From NCBI RefSeq assembly GCF_014191305.1, contig NZ_JACHWJ010000003.1, positions 186,001 to 250,000 of the forward strand: DNA of 64,000 nt, in the 5' to 3' direction. A program made the position numbers and the translations under genes. The notes below the pieces were generated by a model, which was not told the DNA's origin, searched no databases, and saw nothing but the letters and a program-made list of their open reading frames with translations. The DNA comes from Pseudoclavibacter helvolus (lineage in GTDB: Bacteria; Actinomycetota; Actinomycetes; Actinomycetales; Microbacteriaceae). Positions 3,059 to 42,846 of the stretch are shown piece by piece; position 1 is the first letter of the stretch, and each line of letters begins with the position of its first letter.

Positions 3059-4492
3059 ATGACCACGTTCGATCGAGCAGAAGCCGAGATCAGCGGGGAG
3101 CGCGTTGCCGCGTCCCTCGCCGGTGCGAAGGCGGCGACCTACTGGCTCGACGACCCCGGCCGCCCGGCGGCCCTCCCTCCGCTTCGCGGCAACCACACGG
3201 CCGACCTCGTGATCGTCGGCGGCGGATACACGGGGCTGTGGACCGCGCTGCTCGCGAAGGAGCGCGACCCGAAACGGAAGGTCGTGCTCCTGGAAGGGCA
3301 GCGGGTCGGCTGGGCCGCATCCGGTCGCAACGGCGGATTCTGCGAGGCGAGCCTCACCCACGGCGCCTCAAACGGCAAAGACCGCCTGCCTCACGAATTC
3401 GCGAAACTGCAGGCCCTCGGCCTCGAGAACCTCCGCGAGATCGGCGACACGGTGAAGCGGTACGGCATGGACTGCGACTACGAGGAGACCGGCGTGCTGC
3501 GGGTCGCCACAGAGCCGCACCAGGTCAAGGAACTCGAAGAAGAGGCAGTCGGCGACTCGAGCATCGAGTACTTCGACCGCCAGCACGTGCAGGCAGAGGT
3601 GGCCTCGCCGCTGTATCTGGCCGGCGCCTACGAACGCGAGGGAACCTCGCTCGTGAACCCCGCGAAGCTCGTCTGGGAACTCCGGCGGGTGGTGCTCGGC
3701 ATGGGCGTCGCGATCTTCGAGAACACCCCCGCTCGCTCGCTCGACGCTGATGGCGGAGGCGTCACCGTCACAACCGACGAGGGCAGCGTCTACGCGCAGC
3801 GAGTCGCGCTCGGCACCAACGCCTTCCCCGCGCTCATCAAGCGCGACCGCTTCTACACGGTCCCCGTCTACGACTACGTGCTCATGACGAACCCGCTGAG
3901 CGACGAGCAGCTCGAGTCGATCGGCTGGAAGCGACGCCAGGGCATCACCGACCTCAACAACCGCTTCCACTACTCGCGACTTGTGAAGGACGCGGACGGG
4001 CGGACGCGCATCCTCTACGGCGGGTACGACGCCGTCTACAACTACGGCGGGCGCATCAAGAAGGAGTACGACCAGCGGCCCGAGACGTTCGAGAAGCTCG
4101 CGGCGCACTTCATCGCGACCTACCCGCAGCTCGAGGGCCTCGGCTTCTCGCACAAGTGGGGCGGCGTCATCGACACGTGCACGCGCTTCTTCTCGTTCTT
4201 CGACACCGAGTACGACGGACGGGTCGCGCATGCCGCAGGTTTCACTGGCCTCGGCGTCGGCGCGACCAGGTACGCGGCCAACGTGCTCCTCGACCTGCTC
4301 AGCGGCGAGGAGACCGAGCGAACGCGCATGGACTTCGTCAAGAAGAAGCCGCTGCCGTTCCCGCCGGAGCCGTTCGCGTCGTTCGGCGCGAAGGTGTCGC
4401 TCGCCGAGATGGCACGCGCCGACCGCAACGAAGGCAAGCGCGGACTGTGGCTGAAGACGATGGATGCGGTCGGGCTGGGGTTCGACTCGTGA
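3059..4492 (+). CDS. FAD-dependent oxidoreductase, DAO/PuuB-like
   Basis: Soluble 477-residue flavoprotein of the D-amino-acid-oxidase fold. The ADP-binding motif VIVGGGYTGLWTALLAKE sits about 45 residues in, followed by GWAASGRNGGF, which in this family places the isoalloxazine ring. The C-terminal FAD contact is HAAGFTGLGVG. Gamma-glutamylputrescine oxidase and related amine oxidases have this arrangement. The start ATG 3059 has GGAGG at 3048-3052; an upstream in-frame ATG at 3029 lacks a Shine-Dalgarno. It lies 44 bases after the permease and runs into the cupin gene, so co-transcription is likely. Assignment to putrescine, as opposed to another amine, is contextual. Confidence 0.88.
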   Translation: MTTFDRAEAEISGERVAASLAGAKAATYWLDDPGRPAALPPLRGNHTADLVIVGGGYTGLWTALLAKERDPKRKVVLLEGQRVGWAASGRNGGFCEASLTHGASNGKDRLPHEFAKLQALGLENLREIGDTVKRYGMDCDYEETGVLRVATEPHQVKELEEEAVGDSSIEYFDRQHVQAEVASPLYLAGAYEREGTSLVNPAKLVWELRRVVLGMGVAIFENTPARSLDADGGGVTVTTDEGSVYAQRVALGTNAFPALIKRDRFYTVPVYDYVLMTNPLSDEQLESIGWKRRQGITDLNNRFHYSRLVKDADGRTRILYGGYDAVYNYGGRIKKEYDQRPETFEKLAAHFIATYPQLEGLGFSHKWGGVIDTCTRFFSFFDTEYDGRVAHAAGFTGLGVGATRYAANVLLDLLSGEETERTRMDFVKKKPLPFPPEPFASFGAKVSLAEMARADRNEGKRGLWLKTMDAVGLGFDS

Positions 4493-37799: not shown

Positions 37800-39347
37800 A
37801 TGACCGATCTCATCCACATGCTCCGCGACTGGATGCCTAAGCAGCGGTGGTACTCGGGCGGGGAGGGCCGGGCGCCGCAGCTCACCCACCTCGGTAGCTA
37901 CGTGCTCGCGAACCCGAACGGCGAAGCTGGCGTGCACCTTGTGACCGTGCCGTGCATCCTCGATTCCTCCGGCGACGAGCCGGTCGTGTACCAGGTCCCG
38001 ACCGTGCTTCGCGAGGTAGATGCGCGAGTGCCTGCCCTCGGCTACATCGGGTCGATCAGCAACGCGTCGGGGCGTGTGAGCGCCGTCGTCGACGGGCCGC
38101 ACGACATTGCCTTCGCGAAAGCGCTCCTCACGCTCCTCGAGCGCGAGGGACATGCGCCAGGGGCCGGCGGACGCAGCGACATCGCCGCTTATGGGTTGCC
38201 GATGCCCGGAGCGGTCGTCGGAAGTTTCGTGACGAGCCGCGTGCTGTCTGGTGAGCAGTCGAATACCTCGATCATCTGCGAGATGCGCCTGCCCGATGGC
38301 AGTGACGCGGCACCGCTCATCCTCAAGGTCTTCCGCATGCTGCACGACGGCGAGAACCCGGAGGTCACGCTGCAGTCGGCGCTCGCCGCTGCCGGCTCCG
38401 TGCGCGTGCCGCCAGCCATCGGCCACCTCTCGGGGTACTGGCCGGACCCGCGGGCACGAGACGGCCGAGCATCCGGCAACTTCGTGTTCGCTCAGGAGTT
38501 CCTGCCGGGTGTCGAGGATGCGTGGCGTGTGGCCCTGCGCGCGGCCGAGACGGGCGACGACTTCGGCGACGCCGCCTACACGCTCGGCGAGGCGACCGCT
38601 GAGGTGCACCGCACGTTGCGCGAGGTGCTGCCGAGCGTCGAATCGACCGTGCCGAAGGTGCAGGCCGAGGTGGCCGCCATGCGTCAGCGCTTGGACGCGG
38701 CGATCGCCGTCGCGCCGGCCCTGGAGCGCCTGCGCGGGGCAGCGGAAGAGGTGTACGCGCACGCCGCAGACATGCACTGGCCCAGGTTGCAGCGAGTGCA
38801 CGGCGACCTGCACCTGGGGCAGGTGCTTGCCGTTCAGGACCGCGGTTGGGTGTTCCTCGACTTCGAGGGGGAGCCGCTGCGCACCATCGAGCAGCGCAAC
38901 ACGGCGGATGCACCGCAGCGCGATATCGCTGGCATCCTTCGGTCGTTCGACTACGTCGCGGGCTCGCTCGAGATGACAACCGGGCGCAATGTCGCTGGCG
39001 ACTGGGCAGCGCGGGCGCGTCAGTCATTCCTCAACGGATACGCGGCCGCCGTCAGCGGCGAGGCCAGGGTCGGGCGCCACACGGGCGCGATCACGCTCGA
39101 GGGGCGGGCCGCTCGTCGGCAGGCCGAGGACGCTCACGATGCCGCAGACGCCCGCGAACTTGCCGGTGCGGCCGGCGGCAGCGGCGGCAGGTCGCTCGAG
39201 GACCGTCCGTTGAGCGCCGCGGAAGCCGCCGCGCTCATCAGGGTGTTCGAACTCGACAAGGCCCTGTACGAGGTCATCTACGAGGCATCCCAGCGGCCAG
39301 CATGGTTGAGGATCCCCGTCAGGGCCGTGCAGCGCATCCTCGCCTAA
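37800..39347 (+). CDS. Maltokinase
   Basis: A 515-residue kinase that forms maltose 1-phosphate from maltose, feeding the GlgE alpha-glucan pathway. The N-terminal cap has LIHMLRDWMPKQRWYSGG; the kinase core has VHGDLHLGQVL (catalytic loop) and VFLDFEGEPLR (metal-binding DFEG). It is encoded alone here, without treS or glgE beside it. Residues around 400-470 contain a charged Ala/Gly-rich insertion (RRQAEDAHDAADARELAG) that appears low in complexity. GGAGG is six bases before the ATG. Confidence 0.9.
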   Translation: MTDLIHMLRDWMPKQRWYSGGEGRAPQLTHLGSYVLANPNGEAGVHLVTVPCILDSSGDEPVVYQVPTVLREVDARVPALGYIGSISNASGRVSAVVDGPHDIAFAKALLTLLEREGHAPGAGGRSDIAAYGLPMPGAVVGSFVTSRVLSGEQSNTSIICEMRLPDGSDAAPLILKVFRMLHDGENPEVTLQSALAAAGSVRVPPAIGHLSGYWPDPRARDGRASGNFVFAQEFLPGVEDAWRVALRAAETGDDFGDAAYTLGEATAEVHRTLREVLPSVESTVPKVQAEVAAMRQRLDAAIAVAPALERLRGAAEEVYAHAADMHWPRLQRVHGDLHLGQVLAVQDRGWVFLDFEGEPLRTIEQRNTADAPQRDIAGILRSFDYVAGSLEMTTGRNVAGDWAARARQSFLNGYAAAVSGEARVGRHTGAITLEGRAARRQAEDAHDAADARELAGAAGGSGGRSLEDRPLSAAEAAALIRVFELDKALYEVIYEASQRPAWLRIPVRAVQRILA

Positions 39348-39547
39348 GGCGGCAGCGGCAGGCGCAGGTGCAATTGCAGCTGCAGTCGCGGCGGCGGCGC
39401 TTCCGGGGTCCGCGGTTCGGGTTGTCCCTGGATGCCCGTGCCGTGCCCGTGCATGTCCTCGTCGAGGTCGAGGTTATCCACAGATTCGCCAGCTCATCGT
39501 TTGGGTTGCCGCCGCACGACTACCTTCGCGAGTACGCAATCGGAAGG

Positions 39548-39880
39548 ATGTATGTGCCGAGCAAGGACACGTTCAACAGTTCGCCTGGCGACCCGCGCGG
39601 GGTGCCGAGTACCGGAGGCTACTCACCCGAGGTCTACGACTTGTTGCTTGATGCGGGCGGTCGGCTGGCGGCGTTCTACGCCGCGAAAGCCGCTCGTGCA
39701 CGAAACGCTCCCGAATACCGGCGTTGGCAGAACAAGCTCGCCGCGCTGCGCGAGGAGATCGCCGACGTCGACGCTCAGTCGAACGTGAGCGTCGTCGGCA
39801 AGCGCAATGAGCTTCTCGAGCGCTATCGAGTCGAGACGAGCGGCAGCGAAAGCAGCGGAACGGCGCGAGGCGCAAGCTGA
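39548..39880 (+). CDS. Small protein 1 of the zeta-kinase operon (candidate antitoxin, paralogue A)
   Basis: A 110-residue acidic, helical protein with no family that I can name. Its core, GYSPEVYDLLLDAGGRLAAF through LLERYRVE, aligns without gaps to the core of the next gene product with about 22 identities in 75 positions, including Y-P--YD, RL and the terminal R(Y/F)RVE. The two genes are thus probably a tandem duplication. It lies 49 bases upstream of that paralogue and at the head of the zeta-kinase operon. ATG 39548 follows a TACGCA element; no standard Shine-Dalgarno spacing is seen, so the start is tentative. Confidence 0.7.
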   Translation: MYVPSKDTFNSSPGDPRGVPSTGGYSPEVYDLLLDAGGRLAAFYAAKAARARNAPEYRRWQNKLAALREEIADVDAQSNVSVVGKRNELLERYRVETSGSESSGTARGAS

Positions 39881-39929
39881 TCGACATGGAGACGCGGGCT
39901 CCGAGGACACCCACGACGAGAGGACGACC

Positions 39930-40190
39930 ATGACCGACGAAGCGAACAGCGACCCCGTCGACGACTACGACCCCATGATTTACGACGCCATGCGTGAAGC
40001 CGCGAATCGGCTTGGCGGGCTGTACATGGAGCGCTGGCACTTGGCGACGAACGAAGCGGAGAAGGAAAAGTGGCTCTCCCTCAACCACCGAGTGTGGCGT
40101 GAATCGCGCGATATCGACCCGGGTTCTCTTGACGATGTGCAACGCGCCCGCGCTGACTTTGTGGCGCGTTTCAGGGTCGAGGAACTGTGA
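39930..40190 (+). CDS. Small protein 2 of the zeta-kinase operon (candidate antitoxin, paralogue B)
   Basis: An 86-residue, strongly acidic helical protein (MTDEANSDPVDDYDPMIYDA, then RDIDPGSLDDVQRARADFVA). It is a paralogue of the preceding gene product. Its stop codon overlaps the ATG of the zeta-kinase (TGATG), a coupling seen in toxin-antitoxin pairs in which the antitoxin is made first. The size (about 90 residues) and predicted all-alpha character match epsilon-like antitoxins, though there is no clear sequence similarity to epsilon or PezA. GAGAGGAC lies upstream of the start. Confidence 0.8.
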   Translation: MTDEANSDPVDDYDPMIYDAMREAANRLGGLYMERWHLATNEAEKEKWLSLNHRVWRESRDIDPGSLDDVQRARADFVARFRVEEL

Positions 40191-41377
40191 TGTTCCGCGA
40201 CGAACTGAGTCGCGAGGAGCTTGTCGAGATCTTCGACCGATCTATCAGCGACAAGTTGAAGACAGAGTCCGCAGTTCCGGACCCGACGTTCGTCCTGGTT
40301 GGAGCCCAACCCGGTGCGGGGAAGACACGTGTCGTTGCGCTGGCCGAGCGCGCTCACTCTGGCGCCGTTGCCGTGGTTGGTGACGACTTCCGCCAGTTCC
40401 ATCCCGACTATGCGCGCCTCATGCGGGAGGAGCCACTGCGCATGCCCGAGGTGACGGCGCAGGCAGCTGGCGCGTGGGCGCGCATGTCGAGCGACTATCT
40501 GCGGGAGCGGCAGGCGTCGGTTGTCTTCGAGACGACCTTCAGGCAGCCCGATGCGGTCGTGGCGACGGCCAAGGAGTTCCGGGATGCGGGCTACCGAGTT
40601 GAGGTTCGGGCGCTCGCGGTTCCCGAGGCGGTGTCGCGCCTCGGCGTGCTGTCGCGCTACGCGGAGCAGGTGCGTGACCAGGGCGTCGGTCGTTGGACTC
40701 CTCAGGCGTTCCACGACGCCGCCGCCGAGCAGATGCCCAAATCGCTGGAGCGAGTCATCGCCGAGGGACACGTCGACAGGGTGCTTGTCGTCGATCGCGC
40801 CGGCCGCGCCGTGTACACCGCAGATATCGAAGCGACAGCCGCGAGCTCGCCAGGCGCGCGAGACGGAGCCGAAGCCCGCACCGCCGTCGACGCCGGGAGG
40901 CGGATCGAAACCCTCGACAGCGAGGCGGCGCGAACCTGGCTTGGCACCTTCGAACGAGACGCGAACTTCGTCCTCGACCGCGCCGACCTCGGCAGCGACG
41001 TGGTCGCCACCATCGATGACCTCCGCCGAGACGGCGACCGAATCGCCAGGCTCGCGCACGAACAGGGCAGCCCCTCGCTCACCGCAGCGGAGTCGAACCT
41101 CGCCGTCCTCGGGGTCCGCACCAGCGCCGCGCGGGAGCTCCTCGAACGCAACGAGCAGCAGCTGAAGGCGGGCGCAACAGGCGAACCCTTCCGCGCCGAG
41201 CAACTGGGCCAGAGCCGCAACCGCATCACAAACACGCAGCTCCACTCGGAGCTTCAGACGCAGCTCAGCACGAACCTCGGCCGAAACACCAGCACCAAGC
41301 TCCAAGCCAACCCGCAACAGCTCTTGGACTCAGCCCGCAGTCGAACCGAGCAGCCGACACTCGACCACGGCCGCTGA
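40190..41377 (+). CDS. Zeta-toxin-family kinase with C-terminal extension
   Basis: A 395-residue protein. Residues 1-210 form a zeta-type P-loop kinase: Walker A FVLVGAQPGAGKTRVVAL, substrate-binding VVGDDFRQFHPDYARLM and the downstream VFETTFRQPDAVVATAKEF. Zeta toxins phosphorylate UDP-N-acetyl sugars and block wall synthesis; related kinases may have other substrates. Residues 215-395 are an extension not found in minimal zeta toxins: helical, charged, ending in a Gln/Asn/Thr-rich tail (QTQLSTNLGRNTSTKLQANP). The ATG overlaps the upstream stop codon. Toxin function is inferred from family and operon layout. Confidence 0.85.
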   Translation: MFRDELSREELVEIFDRSISDKLKTESAVPDPTFVLVGAQPGAGKTRVVALAERAHSGAVAVVGDDFRQFHPDYARLMREEPLRMPEVTAQAAGAWARMSSDYLRERQASVVFETTFRQPDAVVATAKEFRDAGYRVEVRALAVPEAVSRLGVLSRYAEQVRDQGVGRWTPQAFHDAAAEQMPKSLERVIAEGHVDRVLVVDRAGRAVYTADIEATAASSPGARDGAEARTAVDAGRRIETLDSEAARTWLGTFERDANFVLDRADLGSDVVATIDDLRRDGDRIARLAHEQGSPSLTAAESNLAVLGVRTSAARELLERNEQQLKAGATGEPFRAEQLGQSRNRITNTQLHSELQTQLSTNLGRNTSTKLQANPQQLLDSARSRTEQPTLDHGR

Positions 41378-41508: not shown

Positions 41509-42846
41509 TCAGCCGACCCGGCGCAGCTCCGGCTCCCGCACCTTCAGGAACGGCGCGTACGGCAGCATGAAGCGCTGCGCGACGCGGGCTAGCGCCCCCG
41601 CATCGGGAGCCAGCTCCACCTCGGCGCCATCGCCCATGAGGACCGCCGCCATGTTCTGCTTCGCGGTTGTGCCCCACTGCTCGAGGATCGTCGTATGCCC
41701 CGTCAGCAGGTCGCCCAGTGACAGCGGCGCGCCGGCCGACCGCTTCTCCTGAGCCGCACCGAGCACGCCCGTCTCCAGCCTCACCACTCCGGGCGTGCTC
41801 GCGGGGTCTGCGCCATGGCCGAAATGGCCCGCCCGCCCCAGGAATGGGAGATGCACGTTGATGCCGAGGATCAGTCCCACCGACGGATCCACGGGAGCCA
41901 GCAGCGAATAGTGCGGAACACGGGCCGACGCCGGCAGGTCGTCAAGCGACGTCACCCCGTGCCCGAGGCCAGCGCTCGACACGTGCACAACCCGATCGAC
42001 GCGCATCCCCAGCGACATAGCGCGCCCCGTGACCCCGCCGCCGAAGCTGAAGCCGAACGCCGTCAACGCAACACGTCCGTCGCGCGGAATCGAGTTCACG
42101 AACGTTCCGAGCTTGCGAGCCAGACCGTCGGCCATCGCTGCCGACAGCGCCAACGGCCCGCGCGGGAACCGGCCGCCCTGCCACACAACAAGCCCAGCCT
42201 TGCCTGCCGGCGCGAGCTTCAGCAGCTCCGACATCGTGTGCGCCTTGCCCTCGAAGTCCAGCAGGCGAGCTTCGTTGCCGGGCACGAACACACCTACCGA
42301 TGTGACGCCCTCTGCAAAGGGAGACGCCAGCGGATCCTCCGACTCTGAGATCGCTGGCCCCACGTATTCGACGATCGAGTCCCGCTCGGGATCGAACGCC
42401 AGCACGAACCTCGGCTTGCCTCCGCGATCGACAAAACCACGCCCGCTGTGCAGTTCCTTGAGCTGGTGCACAAGCCGTTCGCGGTCTCGCAGCTCGCCCC
42501 GGCTCGCATCCGCCAAGATGCTCTTGATCTCGCCGCCCGCAAACGCGCTCGCGCTGCCAAGGGCCCGCTCGATGGATGCTCCGGACTCGAGCGCGTTGAT
42601 GGCCCGCCCGAGAGATTCTCGGTTCGCCCGCACGCGCACCGCCCACGGGATGCCGTCGAGGTTTCCGACGAGCAGCGGCACCTGCTTGAGCAGGCGGCTG
42701 TGCTCGGCGTCGGGGAGCGAAGCCCACCACTCGCGCGTCGTCGCAGCGGAAGGTGGTGCGTTGAGGACGCGGCGCAGTCGCCCGCGCGATATGGGCCTCG
42801 ACTCGATCAGGCGGGTGAGGTCAGCAAAAGAAGAACGGGCTCGCAC
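41509..42846 (-). CDS. DUF1023 alpha/beta hydrolase
   Basis: A 445-residue protein. The N-terminal part has the W-W---P----LL--VP-LVGNLDGIPW pattern common in actinobacterial DUF1023 proteins, and the C-terminal half is an alpha/beta hydrolase with nucleophile elbow GFSFGGG (Gly-x-Ser-x-Gly). Acid and His residues probably lie in HYSLLAPVDPSVG and TGHTTILEQWG. DUF1023 proteins are often found next to secreted or toxin-like genes, and the substrate is unknown. GTG 42846 is six bases after TACGCT, so translation is probably leaderless. It is convergent with the zeta-kinase operon. Confidence 0.82.
   Translation of the reverse strand: MRARSSFADLTRLIESRPISRGRLRRVLNAPPSAATTREWWASLPDAEHSRLLKQVPLLVGNLDGIPWAVRVRANRESLGRAINALESGASIERALGSASAFAGGEIKSILADASRGELRDRERLVHQLKELHSGRGFVDRGGKPRFVLAFDPERDSIVEYVGPAISESEDPLASPFAEGVTSVGVFVPGNEARLLDFEGKAHTMSELLKLAPAGKAGLVVWQGGRFPRGPLALSAAMADGLARKLGTFVNSIPRDGRVALTAFGFSFGGGVTGRAMSLGMRVDRVVHVSSAGLGHGVTSLDDLPASARVPHYSLLAPVDPSVGLILGINVHLPFLGRAGHFGHGADPASTPGVVRLETGVLGAAQEKRSAGAPLSLGDLLTGHTTILEQWGTTAKQNMAAVLMGDGAEVELAPDAGALARVAQRFMLPYAPFLKVREPELRRVG

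Follow-up and report, generated by a model that had tools for sequence, protein, structure and literature searches.

Two paralogous antitoxin-family genes and a putatively exchanged antitoxin/toxin segment at a zeta-type kinase locus of Pseudoclavibacter

Results and Discussion

In a 64,000 nucleotide stretch of the genome of the soil bacterium Pseudoclavibacter helvolus (contig NZ_JACHWJ010000003.1, called the window below) two small genes and a kinase gene follow each other head to tail on the plus strand, namely P0001 (39548-39880), P0002 (39930-40190) and P0003 (40190-41377). An earlier note, made from the DNA letters alone, had described them as a zeta-kinase operon with two tandem antitoxin candidates, and the open reading frames (ORFs) of the window bear out its gene set and lengths (110 and 86 amino acids, then the kinase) as well as the overlap at the P0002/P0003 junction, where the stop TGA (40188-40190) runs into the start ATG (40190) as TGATG. 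From the analysis described here the locus is probably a chromosomal epsilon/zeta-type toxin–antitoxin unit, in which the matching of the two partners lies on an exchangeable segment, outside of which a conserved and apparently older second protein of antitoxin type is encoded. The features concerned are:

39554..39880, plus strand: P0001, second antitoxin-family protein, 108 amino acids from the GTG at 39554 or 110 amino acids from the ATG at 39548
39930..40190, plus strand: P0002, putative kinase-adjacent antitoxin, 86 amino acids, predicted three-helix bundle
40190..41377, plus strand: P0003, zeta-type kinase, 395 amino acids
40030..40400, plus strand: putatively exchanged block, from sliding identity, the ratio of nonsynonymous to synonymous substitution rates (dN/dS) by region and a permutation scan

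The assignment of P0003 as a zeta-type kinase holds, as it matches Pfam Zeta_toxin (PF06414) with 157 bits against a cut-off of 22.3 and the streptococcal zeta (1gvn_B) with 1.1e-19; together with the match to PezT (1.9e-16) this is the zeta/PezT kinase domain by which epsilon/zeta systems in the broad sense are recognised. Alignment to zeta and a conservation check showed that P0003 keeps the Walker Lys45, Asp65, Glu114, Thr116, Arg118, Arg156 and Arg168, and the zeta residues aligned to these are given catalytic, substrate and ATP-site roles in PMC6362051. Thus the Walker Lys, Asp67, Glu116, Arg158 and Arg171 of zeta all have their counterpart (K45, D65, E114, R156 and R168), and of the GTXR motif of the UDP-N-acetylglucosamine (UNAG) site the Thr and the Arg are retained in TTFR (115-118). 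Glu100 of zeta, named as a UNAG-site residue in the same paper, is aligned with Arg98 and is therefore not kept. The 180-residue extension claimed for the kinase shrinks to about the last 75–100 residues, the remainder being ordinary since the streptococcal zeta itself has 287 amino acids; the five best plasmid relatives align with P0003 up to residues 300-363.

P0001 and P0002 are paralogues, as the earlier note had proposed from a hand alignment. A single BLASTP comparison gave 27/90 identities (E 8e-10), and a family profile without any P0001 orthologue matches both of them (P0002 2.3e-23, P0001 7.2e-10, Z set to 1000). This profile was made from 80 zeta-adjacent relatives, 82 having been gathered minus two repeats of genus members, and P0001 was part of the seed alignment used for the first collection of its members. 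In a tree of 41 sequences the genus clades of P0001 and P0002 group together with 93/86, just under the star level of the tool, which supports the idea of a zeta toxin–antitoxin unit with duplicated antitoxin-family genes. As the stem of the P0001 clade is long (1.88) and its tips are short, in addition to this grouping, we read its history as one duplication followed by fast divergence and then constraint. The description of both proteins as acidic fits P0002 (pI 4.6) but not P0001 (pI 8.0). No credited match to either of them was found in Pfam, NCBIfam or PHROGs; CPV_Polyhedrin for P0002 (Pfam, 0.003) and DUF3253 for P0001 (best Pfam row, 0.017) stayed under their cut-offs and were taken as chance. 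The antitoxin family to which both belong matches no Pfam or NCBIfam model.

The AlphaFold2 model of P0002 shows three helices with a predicted local distance difference test score (pLDDT) of 90.5, and in a comparison with 164 PDB chains epsilon (rank 2) and PezA (rank 3) were its best natural matches, both covering nearly the whole domain of the model. P0002 is thus predicted to be a three-helix bundle like epsilon and PezA. In sequence, the Pfam and NCBIfam epsilon models matched none of 18 family members at E up to 1, and a PDB profile search and HHalign with one and with five epsilons were all non-significant. Because sequence comparisons gave nothing significant, the link to epsilon comes solely from the predicted fold of P0002, and the earlier statement that neither small protein resembles epsilon or PezA, for which a check by HHpred and structure had been proposed, is right for the sequences but not for this fold. 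One could argue that the likeness is merely a shared simple bundle and that the family arose independently as a zeta inhibitor. We consider this rather unlikely given the two ranks and the nearly full coverage, and also because the gene position and the fold of the partner are the same as for epsilon.

To see how general the arrangement is, 103 loci were used, comprising 21 from a genome search, two from plasmids and the top 80 among at least 407 confirmed matches in genome contigs, after leaving out L001 (the own locus again), L003–L006 (weak kinase matches) and L027 and L028 (no zeta). Zeta was recognised by profile in 102 of the 103, and L002 is the one without a match to P0003. As this set favours relatives of P0003, the fractions that follow should not be carried over to zeta toxins in general. 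An antitoxin-family gene is present in the fetched stretch of 90 of the 102 zeta loci and of 82 of the 94 distinct ones. In 80 of these 94 it lies upstream on the same strand, its stop at a median of 120 nt before the P-loop, so that with the TGATG overlap seen here an antitoxin-type gene directly upstream of the kinase is found as in epsilon/zeta systems; in the other 2 of the 82 it was not measured next to zeta on the same strand, in L086 due to its strand. The 12 zeta loci without a family gene each have another ORF of 82-175 amino acids ending near the kinase start, and none of these ORFs matched the family profile at E 0.01.

A second family gene is much rarer (6/82 distinct loci), being restricted to five Pseudoclavibacter loci and L045 from Streptomyces triculaminicus; L055 has two family fragments in different frames and not a second gene. 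The earlier note had suggested a survey of whether both genes always accompany the kinase and regarded kinases regularly lacking them as evidence against its proposal. A P0002-like gene is indeed the usual companion, but this does not hold for the second copy. In L045 (2954-3984) an independent tandem pair precedes zeta, and its copies are sisters in the tree and therefore go back to a recent duplication. A natural fusion was found in Nonomuraea guangzhouensis (L086), where a 376 amino acid ORF on the minus strand has an antitoxin-family domain at residues 119-188 and after it a zeta domain at 205-364, this being a second zeta alongside the one on the plus strand. L084 from Bifidobacterium cuniculi (3563-4249) was rejected as a fusion, as the frame carries the antitoxin domain and only about the first 50 positions of the zeta profile, the remaining zeta match being in another ORF. 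In slightly overlapping whole-genome samples the family was present in 22/299 genomes of Microbacteriaceae, 22/396 of the order and 18/394 of the class. The genome of the window itself encodes a second zeta-like kinase (L002 698-2301, C12; 69.6 bits), and the 196 amino acid protein before it looks, judged by eye, like a helix-turn-helix (HTH) protein.

Within the genus a zeta match is present in six of ten genomes. Five of these carry the orthologous locus, each with both small genes, and the pair of antitoxin-family genes is thus a genus trait (5/5 Pseudoclavibacter genomes with the locus). P0001 is inherited together with the locus, as it was found in these five and in none of the other five genomes. 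The adjacent gene 5' of P0001 (37800-39347) presumably encodes a maltokinase, and the protein is 90-96% identical to that of the window in the other four carriers against 54-60% in the five non-carriers, therefore the carriers form one group. On the other side P0003 is followed by an ORF on the minus strand (41509-42846). Across the ten pairs of orthologues identity is 71-94% for P0001, 66-83% for the kinase and 50-79% for P0002. P0001 is more conserved than the whole kinase in 10/10 pairs and than P0002 in 7/10, full-length P0002 being slightly ahead in the three pairs with a common block type; taken by itself the kinase core (84-225, 89-96%) surpasses P0001 20-96 (82-95%) in the majority of pairs. 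The dN/dS of P0001 is about 0.07-0.22 among orthologues. The C-terminal tail of the kinase and the intergenic DNA 3' of P0003 (41170-41480) align poorly across the five species.

The start of P0001 is more likely the GTG at 39554 than the ATG at 39548, as the latter is ACG in 2/5 orthologues and the GTG with the preceding GGRAGGA is kept in 5/5. Two conserved elements were found upstream of it:

39473..39485, plus strand: 13-base conserved motif GTTRTCCACAGAT, upstream of P0001 in 5/5 orthologues
39525..39548, plus strand: conserved leader TTCGCGAGTACGCAATCGGAAGGA, with the probable ribosome-binding site for P0001

The 13-base motif, which to our eyes resembles a DnaA box, is present as a single copy in the own genome and absent from the five genus genomes without the locus, and the leader varies at 2 of its 24 positions among the five orthologues.

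Such conservation might indicate that P0001 is no longer an antitoxin but has replaced omega or the HTH part of PezA and controls transcription of the operon, alone or bound to P0002. Like omega it is encoded by the first gene, it is strongly constrained and basic instead of acidic, and a conserved N-terminal stretch before its helices as well as the conserved DNA just upstream would fit a regulator. However, neither P0001 nor P0002 has an HTH or ribbon-helix-helix (RHH) match, and P0001 no match to any DNA-binding family, in Pfam, NCBIfam and PHROGs at E up to 1, and the helical region of P0001 aligns with the antitoxin family, which makes this role possible but somewhat doubtful.

Less likely still, P0001 could be an orphan protein that gives immunity to foreign zeta kinases borne on plasmids or phages and is unrelated to the adjacent kinase. 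Family members without zeta do exist and speak for it: six Microbacteriaceae loci have one without zeta in the fetched stretch (two of them weak matches and one near a contig end), and L184 (G551), L185 (G716) and L186 (G385) contain pairs of family genes with no zeta profile match within the fetched 5-7.5 kb, one gene of L186 following a gene that we take to be Fic. Two plasmid members also have no annotated zeta in the stretch shown, L028 2426-2791 (p545, Propionibacterium), which adjoins a gene annotated as toxin, and L027 5028-5258 (Paenarthrobacter). Against this stands the linkage of P0001 to the kinase locus (5/5, and 0/5 without it), and one would expect a protein of this kind to change along with its targets.

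An unexpected feature of the locus, which was not visible to the earlier note, is a block of about 370 bp that reaches from about residue 31-34 of P0002 to about residue 70-80 of the kinase, so that P0002 lies partly inside and P0001 wholly outside of it. In the closest species pair (G188/G274) identity is 56% inside the block against 93% outside. In windows of 150 columns identity is mostly 91-99% between 37600 and the first part of P0002, P0001 included, apart from some dips to 0.80-0.87 in the region 39088-39451; it falls to 53-57% in the windows from 40074 to 40284 and is back at 95% at 40509. Towards its 3' end the kinase gene loses identity as well, in all pairs. The synonymous divergence (dS) of this pair follows the same course, being 0.17 in P0001 20-96, 0.20 in P0002 12-29, saturated in P0002 31-86, 1.64 in kinase 1-80 and 0.23 in both kinase 84-225 and 226-320. 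In a permutation scan run without the ragged 3' tail the best 330-column window had 148 mismatches, compared to at most 62 in 1000 permutations. With borders chosen after seeing the sliding identity (40030-40400), the mismatch is 0.44 inside and 0.07 elsewhere.

The top window falls on the block in 7/10 pairs and not in the three that AY1F1, G188 and AY1H1 form with each other, because these have a related block (29-34% mismatch). The five genomes from which the block was defined thus show three block types, that of the window, that of G274 and that of AY1F1, G188 and AY1H1. A block shared by the window and G274, considered because of a few common residues, was dropped as their block DNA differs (44% mismatch) as much as the other types. 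In other groups with a kinase-core identity of at least 0.93 the kinase N-terminus showed no such drop and stays at 0.91 or above. From the drop in identity, the dS contrast, the permutation scan and the stable N-terminus elsewhere, we take the block as one segment spanning the gene overlap that was apparently replaced by recombination between species. Rapid divergence, with selection either relaxed or diversifying, is a very improbable alternative: other groups too, e.g. Rhizobium, have antitoxin C-termini that are less well conserved than their kinase core, but diversifying selection should raise dN and not dS, the synonymous sites of G188/G274 are saturated or nearly so inside the block and at about 0.2 outside, and the N-terminal drop is missing in those groups with a conserved core. 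As judged from search entries only, the literature offered no paper in which a zeta locus has paired antitoxins or an exchanged block.

Replacement by recombination suggests a model for the locus. Free P0003, having a zeta fold, would poison cell-wall sugar-nucleotide metabolism, and P0002 would be its matched antitoxin. Among the five orthologues residues 15-29 of P0002 are nearly invariant and helices 2-3 are variable. The invariant start of the first helix would enter the ATP site as in epsilon, where it is described as blocking this site in PMC5923241, and helices 2-3 would contact the variable kinase N-terminus and set partner specificity. For zeta PMC6362051 mentions a few antitoxin-binding residues in the N-terminal region and antitoxin binding by Arg158. 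Both putative matching surfaces would then be encoded next to each other on the two sides of the gene overlap, and as they lie on one short segment recombination would replace them together and the pair would stay matched.

P0001, in this model a tandem paralogue frozen after a single phase of divergence, is encoded beyond the segment and follows the conserved part, therefore type-specific matching by P0001 is unlikely. It may instead be a second, block-independent antitoxin touching the invariant kinase core, which we regard as a serious possibility though not yet a probable one; this and the regulator described above are the two leading roles. More speculatively, and rather against expectation, the junction could be a swappable 'lock and key' segment with P0001 as a guardian antitoxin on the invariant core that protects the cell during a brief mismatch.

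Among known systems, omega-epsilon-zeta of streptococcal and enterococcal plasmids (1gvn) shares the zeta kinase fold and active site, the small antitoxin gene directly upstream, the predicted three-helix antitoxin and the three-gene layout. Its first gene, however, encodes the RHH repressor omega, whereas here this position is taken by P0001, an antitoxin paralogue without RHH match, and the locus also differs in antitoxins unmatched by Pfam epsilon, in the exchanged antitoxin/toxin block and in zeta Glu100, which is not kept. In PezAT of Streptococcus pneumoniae (2p5t) an HTH is fused to the antitoxin, and none was found on P0001 or P0002. Rv0366c-Rv0367c, a non-canonical actinobacterial PezAT, likewise has a zeta-like kinase with the gene of a divergent antitoxin upstream, but according to PMC6362051 an RHH domain is predicted in this antitoxin and the kinase lacks the N-terminal region, which P0003 has and which belongs to the exchanged block. 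SpoIISABC of Bacillus cereus also combines one toxin with two antitoxin genes, and the abstract of PMC4526809 reports that both antitoxins bind and neutralise; there the toxin is an unrelated membrane protein, and this abstract mentions no exchanged block.

Conclusion

In our judgement of the field, it is a standing question how toxin and antitoxin can change their specificity without a lethal mismatched intermediate. Here five close species carry three natural types of the block in an otherwise common frame. The putative matching surfaces share one recombining segment, next to which lies a conserved second gene of antitoxin type, and this makes the locus a natural test case for a change of partners. 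Furthermore, the zeta kinases of actinobacteria and of some proteobacteria gain an antitoxin family for which neither Pfam nor NCBIfam has a model.
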